From: Gammaproteobacteria bacterium Ga0074134
GTDB lineage: Bacteria; Pseudomonadota; Gammaproteobacteria; Ga0077554; Ga007554
Length of the DNA: 64,000 bases
Assembly: GCA_001464965.1 (NCBI GenBank)
Contig: LNEJ01000059.1
Location: 1-64,000 of the forward strand
Direction: 5' to 3'
A program made the translations under genes and the position numbers. The stretch's first letter is position 1. Each line of letters opens with the position of its first letter. The notes beneath the pieces are model-generated. The model ran no database searches. It saw only the letters and a list, made by a program, of their open reading frames with translations, and was not told the origin of the DNA. Shown here in pieces: positions 15,878 to 17,847 of this stretch.

Positions 15878-15913
15878 TCCCCTAAACTTCCGAGTAAGCC
15901 ACATAACACATTG

Positions 15914-16834
15914 ATGCGCATAAAAAACTACTTTCTCAACCACCTTTACGCCTTCTTTTACAGTCTGGGCCAGATGAGCCGCGCGCCGCTGTCCAGTGTC
16001 ATGACCATGGTGGTGATTGGCATCACCCTGGCCTTGCCCGCCGGGCTGTATGCCGTGCTGAAAAATGCCCAGCAGCTCAGTGCGGGCTGGGATGATGTGG
16101 CGCAAATCTCGGTGTTTCTCAAAAAGGACGTGGACAGCCAGGCTTTGGCTGGTCTGGCAAAGCGTTTGCATGACCGGCCGGATATCGCCAAGATTACGAC
16201 CGTTCCGGCGGCCCAGGCGTTGGAGGAATTCAGAAAACTTTCCGGTTTCGACGACGCCTTGCGTGCCTTGGATGAAAATCCCCTACCTTCTGTATTGATA
16301 ATTCAGCCGGCAGTGGGATATGCTGACCCAGCGGCCGTCGAACATTTGCAGGCGTCGCTACGAAAACTGCCGGAAGCCGATTTTGTCCAATTGGATATCC
16401 AGTGGGTACAACGCCTGCACGCAGTGCTTGAAATCGCCAAACGCGGCGTGGAGATCCTCGCCGTGTTGCTGGGGCTGGCGGTGCTGCTGATTGTGGGGAA
16501 CACCATCCGCCTGGGCGTCCAGAGCAACCGTGACGAAATCGCGATCACCAAACTGATCGGCGCCACTGATGGCTTCGTCCGCCGCCCCTTTTTATATGCC
16601 GGAGTCTGGTACGGGCTGCTGGGCGGTATCATCGCCTGGGGGCTGGTCAGTCTCGCGCTGTTGCTGCTGGATGAGCCGGTGAGGAAAGTGTCGGCCCTGT
16701 ATGACAGCGCCTTCGCCCTGGGTATGCTGGATGCCTGGACCATTCTGTTGCTGCTATGCTCTGGCACGCTGCTCGGCCTGCTTGGGTCGTGGCTGGCGGT
16801 GGGCAAGCATTTGCGGGCGGTTGAACCCGATTGA
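15914..16834 (+). CDS. ftsX: Cell-division membrane protein FtsX
   Basis: Membrane subunit of FtsEX, 306 residues, with four transmembrane helices: one near residues 25-45 (SSVMTMVVIGITLALPAGLY) and three in the C-terminal half (VEILAVLLGLAVLLIVGNTI, LLGGIIAWGLVSLALLLL and the last before LAVGKHLRAVEP). The large periplasmic loop (about 55-175) is the domain that recruits the hydrolase activator. The start is the ATG at 15914; a TTG directly before it is also in frame. It is followed by the CIRCE operator and rpoH. Confidence 0.95.
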   Translation: MRIKNYFLNHLYAFFYSLGQMSRAPLSSVMTMVVIGITLALPAGLYAVLKNAQQLSAGWDDVAQISVFLKKDVDSQALAGLAKRLHDRPDIAKITTVPAAQALEEFRKLSGFDDALRALDENPLPSVLIIQPAVGYADPAAVEHLQASLRKLPEADFVQLDIQWVQRLHAVLEIAKRGVEILAVLLGLAVLLIVGNTIRLGVQSNRDEIAITKLIGATDGFVRRPFLYAGVWYGLLGGIIAWGLVSLALLLLDEPVRKVSALYDSAFALGMLDAWTILLLLCSGTLLGLLGSWLAVGKHLRAVEPD

Positions 16835-16859
16835 CGGAGTGCATGGAACTTTTTCCGCG

Positions 16860-16886
16860 TTAGCACTCTAATGGTAGGAGTGCTAA
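16860..16886. promoter_or_regulatory. Perfect CIRCE operator (HrcA site) upstream of rpoH
   Basis: TTAGCACTC at 16860-16868, nine spacer bases, then GAGTGCTAA at 16878-16886. This is an exact match to the CIRCE inverted repeat bound by the heat-shock repressor HrcA. It lies 26 bases after the ftsX stop and about 104 bases before the rpoH ATG, with no other gene between. CIRCE normally sits at groESL or dnaK/grpE promoters. The placement suggests HrcA represses a promoter for rpoH. No hrcA is in this window. Confidence 0.9.
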
Positions 16887-16989
16887 TATTGGCACCTATT
16901 TAGGGATTTCTTGAGATAGATCAAATCATGGGACCGGAAAAACTGCTATATACATACCATAATTCTAAAATGGAGAGGGGGGTACAGCA

Positions 16990-17847
16990 ATGAGCAAAAC
17001 CATGCAGCTGGATTTAGTGTTGCCGCCAGTAGGCAGCATCGAGGCTTACACCCAAGCGGTGGCGCGTATACCTGTATTGACTGCGGAAGCCGAGCGCGAA
17101 CTCGCGCTGCGCCTGCGCAATGAGAATGATCTGGATGCCGCCCGGCATCTGGTGATGTCGCACCTGCGCTTTGTGGTGCACGTCGCGCGCGGTTACAGTG
17201 GCTATGGCCTGGCGCAGGCGGACCTCATCCAGGAAGGCAACATCGGCCTGATGAAGGCGGTCAAACATTTTGACCCCACCATGAATGTGCGCCTGGTGTC
17301 GTTCGCCGTACACTGGGTGCGCGCCGAAATGCACGAATTCATCCTGCGCAACTGGCGCATCGTGCGGGTGGCGACCACCAAGGCGCAGCGCAAGCTGTTC
17401 TTCAATCTGCGCAGCTCCAAGAAGCACCTCGGCTGGTTCAGCCGCGAGGAGGTCGATGCGCTCGCCAAGGATTTGAACGTAAGCCCGGAAGTAGTGCGCG
17501 AAATGGAAATGCGCATGAACGGCTACGATGCCTCCTTCGATCCCTATACCGAGGATGAAGATGCCGAATCCCCCAACATAGCCCCTGCGGCCTATCTGGC
17601 GGACGCGCAGGCTGACCCTTCGCTGATGCTAGAGAACAGCGATTGGGAGTCTCGCGGAACGGAGCGTTTGCACAACGCCCTCACCGCACTGGATAAACGC
17701 AGCCAGGATATCCTTCAGCGCCGCTGGCTGGCCGATGACAAAGCCACGCTGCATGACCTGGCCGACAAATACCAGGTCTCGGCTGAGCGCATCCGCCAAC
17801 TGGAAAAGAGCGCAATGAAAAAGCTCAAGCAGGCGCTGGAGGCTTAA
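16990..17847 (+). CDS. rpoH: Heat-shock sigma factor RpoH (sigma-32)
   Basis: Alternative sigma factor of 285 residues for heat-shock genes. Region 2 motifs ([52 protein letters not shown]) and region 4.2 helix-turn-helix ([31 protein letters not shown]) are complete. The diagnostic RpoH box QRKLFFNLR is at 133-141. A strong GGAGAGGGGGG ribosome site (16972-16982) precedes the ATG. It follows ftsYEX as in other gammaproteobacteria. A CIRCE operator lies upstream, so transcription is probably heat-controlled by HrcA. The TAA stop (17845-17847) forms the first bases of a 228-bp inverted-repeat element. Confidence 0.97.

Follow-up and report, generated by a model that had tools for sequence, protein, structure and literature searches.

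A CIRCE operator in register with a predicted sigma-E promoter upstream of rpoH in Gammaproteobacteria

In the stretch of gammaproteobacterial DNA analyzed here (64,000 nucleotides, hereafter the window), the sigma-32 gene rpoH is preceded by an exact CIRCE operator that appears to overlap two promoters, one of the sigma-E type and one probably of the housekeeping type. We propose, with a probability of roughly 0.77, that HrcA would occlude both promoters and that GroE would gate the input of envelope stress into rpoH as part of a feedback loop. The observations on which this proposal draws are the sequence, its conservation, the fixed register of operator and promoter elements, the specificity of the arrangement for rpoH, its co-occurrence with hrcA and the rpoE-rseA pair of the genome. 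The coordinates of all features are collected in Table 1.

Table 1. Features of the ftsX-rpoH region of the window.
Feature	Position (nt)	Strand	Remarks
ftsX, upstream neighbor	15911..16834	+	TIGR00439, 359 bits
Predicted sigma-E -35 element, GGAACTT	16845..16851	+	exact consensus; in register with CIRCE at 75/90 rpoH sites
CIRCE, predicted HrcA operator (TTAGCACTC-TAATGGTAG-GAGTGCTAA)	16860..16886	+	exact; kept before rpoH in most hrcA-bearing relatives
Possible sigma-70 -35 element, TTAGCA, in CIRCE left arm	16860..16865	+	putative; 18 nt before TAATAT
Predicted sigma-E -10 element, TCTAA	16867..16871	+	begins with the last two bases of the CIRCE left arm
Extended -10-like element, TGC-TAATAT (sigma-70 type)	16881..16889	+	CIRCE right arm plus 3 bases; last T conserved
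Fnr/CRP-like box, TTGAG-ATAG-ATCAA, candidate activator site	16911..16924	+	9/10 to Fnr consensus
Candidate -10 element of downstream promoter, TGC-TATATA	16947..16952	+	putative; 22-nt distance to box
rpoH (sigma-32)	16990..17847	+	TIGR02392, 403 bits, exceeds equivalog cut-off

The operator (TTAGCACTC-N9-GAGTGCTAA, 0 mismatches) begins 25 bp downstream of the ftsX stop codon and spans 104–130 bp upstream of the rpoH start codon, with a gap of 103 bp to the latter. It is the sole CIRCE match in the window at up to 3 mismatches, and 100 shuffles gave 0 matches, such that the number expected by chance is about 0. The initial annotation had reported an exact CIRCE site between ftsX and rpoH, and both the site and its flanking genes, the latter by curated models, were confirmed. 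It had also suggested a genome search, which identified hrcA (PF01628, E = 1.3e-60; TIGR00331, 303 bits) and, in the 2.9 Mb assembly, three CIRCE sites in total at up to 3 mismatches, the rpoH site included. One of the other two is exact and located 69 bp upstream of groES (contig C26), and the second, with 2 mismatches, is found before hrcA-grpE-dnaK, divergent from an NAD-kinase-like gene (contig C14). Of the features that mark a CIRCE element and an HrcA regulon, the inverted repeat, an encoded hrcA, a nearby heat-shock gene promoter and conservation in relatives were found. The source genome and its named close relatives are uncultured Gammaproteobacteria; in congeners the operator is exact, while the spacer bases between its arms vary.

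Conservation was analyzed more widely in a panel of 56 genomes, which covered the organism's own family and otherwise, for the most part, a single genome from each family of the class, and in which rpoH scored over the cut-off in 52 and hrcA was detected in 37. Among the 52 rpoH-bearing genomes, CIRCE was present before rpoH in 32 of the 35 with hrcA vs. 3 of the 17 without (p = 2e-7), and with the own family removed the counts were 24 of 27 vs. 3 of 17 (p = 3e-6); a few sites with two or three mismatches are included, and because the sequences are related these p-values overstate independence, though most families are represented once. The initial annotation had proposed checking whether the site is kept before rpoH in relatives, which it is, and had treated rpoH as an unusual place for CIRCE, a view that these counts overturn: CIRCE before rpoH is the ordinary, common state in hrcA-bearing Gammaproteobacteria. 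Because its presence tracks hrcA across families, the rpoH operator looks like a functional member of the HrcA regulon. Three genomes have CIRCE before rpoH with hrcA not found in them (G023, G044 and G012); two of these are incomplete (62% and 81%), and G023 is 97% complete. In two Arenimonas loci (L112 and L118), the arms of the CIRCE-like operator upstream of rpoH are separated by 6 bp and not by 9 bp (TTAGCACTC-TGACCG-GAGTGCTAA in L118), and GGAACTT and the trailing T described below are retained beside it. In addition, contigs filed under a Halobacteria archaeon (L070) and a Rhizobium sp. (L122) carry a gammaproteobacterial-type rpoH with CIRCE, and are for this reason probably mis-binned.

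Alignment of 92 rpoH upstream regions on CIRCE revealed a sharp GGAACTT about 16 bp upstream of the operator and T-A/C-A directly after its left arm, the TC of which opens a TCNNA motif. With one entry counted per distinct site (n = 90), GGAACTT (up to 2 mismatches) was found 15–17 nt before this TC at 75 rpoH sites, at a distance of exactly 16 in 57 of them; it was in register at none of the 23 groES CIRCE sites, a small control (p = 2.7e-14), and shuffled upstream stretches gave a mean of 3/90 with a maximum of 10 in 1000 shuffles. TCNNA was present at 72/90 rpoH sites vs. 4/23 groES sites. At about a sixth of the rpoH CIRCE sites no sigma-E -35 stands in register, and the coupling of sigma-E to CIRCE is therefore not universal. 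The motif of the window reads GGAACTT-N15-TCTAA (16845–16871), with a spacer of 15 vs. the 16 of most relatives. Within the one genus that comprises the window and genomes G002 and G003, the spacer is either 15 (GGAACTTTTTCCG) or 16 (GGAACATTTTTCCG), a one-base change in length. The two elements expected of a sigma-E promoter are thus found at near-16 spacing in a genome that encodes rpoE followed by rseA (TIGR02939, 321 bits; RseA_N domain adjacent). Searched for by itself in this genome, the sigma-E pattern gave 12 matches vs. 15 for the reversed control, and because there is no excess the case for sigma-E rests on comparison. A search upstream of rpoE for a sigma-E autoregulatory motif returned none, even at 2 mismatches. 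Judging from the conserved elements, GGAACTT and TCNNA at rpoH CIRCE apparently constitute a promoter read by sigma-E, for which the usual spacing gives a likely start near 16877.

Escherichia coli has the same gene order (ftsY-ftsE-ftsX-rpoH), and in strain K-12 a TGAACTT-N16-TCTGA motif, which we take to be the sigma-E promoter P3, starts 121 bp upstream of the first codon of rpoH; the likeness to the sites described here lies in GAACTT-N16-TCTGA before rpoH. However, E. coli rpoH lacks CIRCE, and sigma-E acts there without an HrcA brake; a control search of E. coli with the HrcA profile gave no match. CIRCE is also absent from one hrcA-less genome of the set (L063, also G009 in the panel) that has kept GGAACTT-N16-TCTCA, and in four lineages (L007, L009, L031 and L072) a perfect GGAACTT-N16-TCNNA is shifted 15–27 bp upstream relative to CIRCE. 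The sigma-E motif and CIRCE are therefore separable, and, since L063 and E. coli have the motif without CIRCE, the link of sigma-E to rpoH extends beyond genomes with the operator.

Where the two occur together, the combination is specific for rpoH. At up to one mismatch, the composite in its exact register was identified in 118 of 369 genomes of the class (88 of 272 genera), a lower bound given that the copy in the window, with its 15-nt spacer, is missed by the fixed-register pattern. It is nearly always present in a single copy per genome, and of 90 composites checked, 88 are located before rpoH, 1 at hrcA and 1 before a clpB-like gene. The locus with a composite upstream of a clpB-like gene, not rpoH, is L250 (G078), in which the -35 is GGAAC-like. 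At groES, CIRCE is instead immediately preceded by a TTGAC...TAT promoter; the operator either overlaps the -10 or comes right behind it (e.g. L001, 1456–1527), an arrangement that is likewise conserved and differs from that at rpoH.

A second, -10-like element is formed by the right arm of the rpoH operator and the 3 bases that follow it, which together read TGCTAAAAT, TGCTAATAT or TGCTAAACT. Its final T is present at 89/90 rpoH sites vs. 2/23 groES sites. Moreover, the third base of CIRCE is off consensus in 18/90 sites and its mirror base, the first of the -10-like hexamer, in 1/90 (p = 3e-5), an asymmetry that, in a symmetric palindrome, is consistent with the right arm being additionally constrained as part of a promoter. 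The key bases TGn-TAnnnT are conserved, and a plain consensus hexamer scan does not call a promoter here; the one weak match of the generic sigma-70 scan of the window falls within ftsX. We think that the right-arm element is probably a sigma-70 extended -10, with TTAGCA, or TTGGCA at the 18/90 sites with G as third base, possibly serving as a -35 at 18 nt from it. The usual spacing would place the likely sigma-70 start near 16896. The stronger conservation of the -10-like T than of the sigma-E -35 (89/90 vs. 75/90), and the persistence of the -10-like element in lineages whose CIRCE has no sigma-E motif in register, could mean that CIRCE acts on rpoH via the sigma-70 promoter alone and that GGAACTT goes unused in the source organism. 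We consider this unlikely, as GGAACTT and TCNNA are sharply in register at rpoH and absent as such from groES sites, GGAACTT is exact in the window, the genome has rpoE-rseA, and a promoter of the sigma-E type precedes rpoH in E. coli.

The rpoH leader contains a further candidate promoter downstream of CIRCE. The same bases make up its Fnr/CRP-like box in congeners, and partly so in a second genus, and the 22-nt distance from the box to TGC-TATATA is kept between the two genera. With a start near 16959 the box would be centered at -41.5, making this a candidate class-II-like promoter for Fnr or CRP, both of which are encoded in the genome; it may bypass HrcA and thus provide HrcA-independent expression of rpoH in this genus. 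Given the conservation of the box and -10 in the genus at class-II spacing, and the presence of both regulators, one could regard the segment at 16911–16952 as the main promoter of rpoH and CIRCE as a relic or weak operator at which HrcA plays a minor role. This reading is very unlikely, since CIRCE is exact in the window and congeners despite the varying spacer bases, and tracks hrcA at rpoH, unlike what would be expected for a relic. A hairpin function of CIRCE in the mRNA has been considered for other genes. For rpoH, action of CIRCE in the transcript, be it as a stem-loop at the 5' end or as a thermometer, was the least credible possibility and was rejected: the predicted starts place the left arm upstream and would yield transcripts without the full hairpin, the rpoH leader and early coding region fold no better than shuffles (z = 0.78), and no Rfam family matched in the window.

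Occlusion of the sigma-E and housekeeping promoters by HrcA would operate as follows. HrcA on its operator (16860–16886) would mask the sigma-E -10 together with its start point, as well as most of the core region of the sigma-70 promoter. With enough free GroE, HrcA would be active and both rpoH promoters shut or damped, and sigma-E by itself could then not fully raise rpoH. The operator would open upon titration of GroE by unfolded protein or inactivation of HrcA by heat. For Campylobacter jejuni HrcA, stimulation by GroE and abolition of DNA binding by heating have been described (PMC8533110). At an open operator, the housekeeping promoter would yield some sigma-32, and sigma-E freed by envelope stress would add more from its own promoter, with full release of rpoH predicted only when both alarms, envelope stress and loss of HrcA activity, coincide. 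Sigma-32 would in turn raise chaperones including GroESL, HrcA would be re-activated, and the loop would be closed. From the observations listed at the outset we infer HrcA binding, the sigma factor assigned to each element, the transcription starts, this AND-type logic and the feedback. The initial annotation had predicted that HrcA controls rpoH, and this part stands as a well-supported prediction in that hrcA is present and the site is conserved and tracks it; the circuit it outlined was incomplete, with the sigma-E input missing. Because the operator overlaps the conserved, predicted sigma-E promoter as well as the second -10-like element, loss of HrcA alone need not fully activate rpoH.

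Relative to the known HrcA/CIRCE regulon (groE and dnaK of Bacillus subtilis, groESL of proteobacteria), the operator is the same, and the genome has hrcA and the sites at groES and hrcA-grpE-dnaK; what differs is that the target here is the sigma-32 gene, and that neither the sigma-E motif nor the last T is present at groES operators. CIRCE at rpoH of Gammaproteobacteria may have been described before: Permina and Gelfand (2003), in a study of beta-, gamma- and epsilon-proteobacteria, may have listed such cases. The initial annotation had suggested that comparative work mentions CIRCE at rpoH in some proteobacteria, and an exact CIRCE upstream of rpoH is listed for Geobacter sulfurreducens in a 2004 paper (Table 8, position -51; PMC545781). 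That case differs in that it concerns a deltaproteobacterium, is a prediction only and does not describe the overlap with sigma-E (PMC545781). Literature linking CIRCE to sigma-E at rpoH was not found, much of this literature not being open.

Accounts of heat-shock control in Gammaproteobacteria draw mostly on E. coli, a species without HrcA; most of the families sampled here have hrcA. It is about an even bet that a module of ~45 bp in many Gammaproteobacteria merges the HrcA operator with the sigma-E and housekeeping promoters of rpoH, and that the E. coli arrangement is a simplified one that followed the loss of hrcA. HrcA-bearing families seem to place the repressor on exactly the promoter that conveys the sigma-E input to rpoH. 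If this is true, the rpoH module would integrate cytoplasmic (GroE/HrcA) and envelope (RseA/sigma-E) stress to set the level of sigma-32, which would explain how one repressor is coordinated with two stress sigma factors. It also leads to the prediction that active HrcA would prevent the full induction of rpoH by sigma-E.
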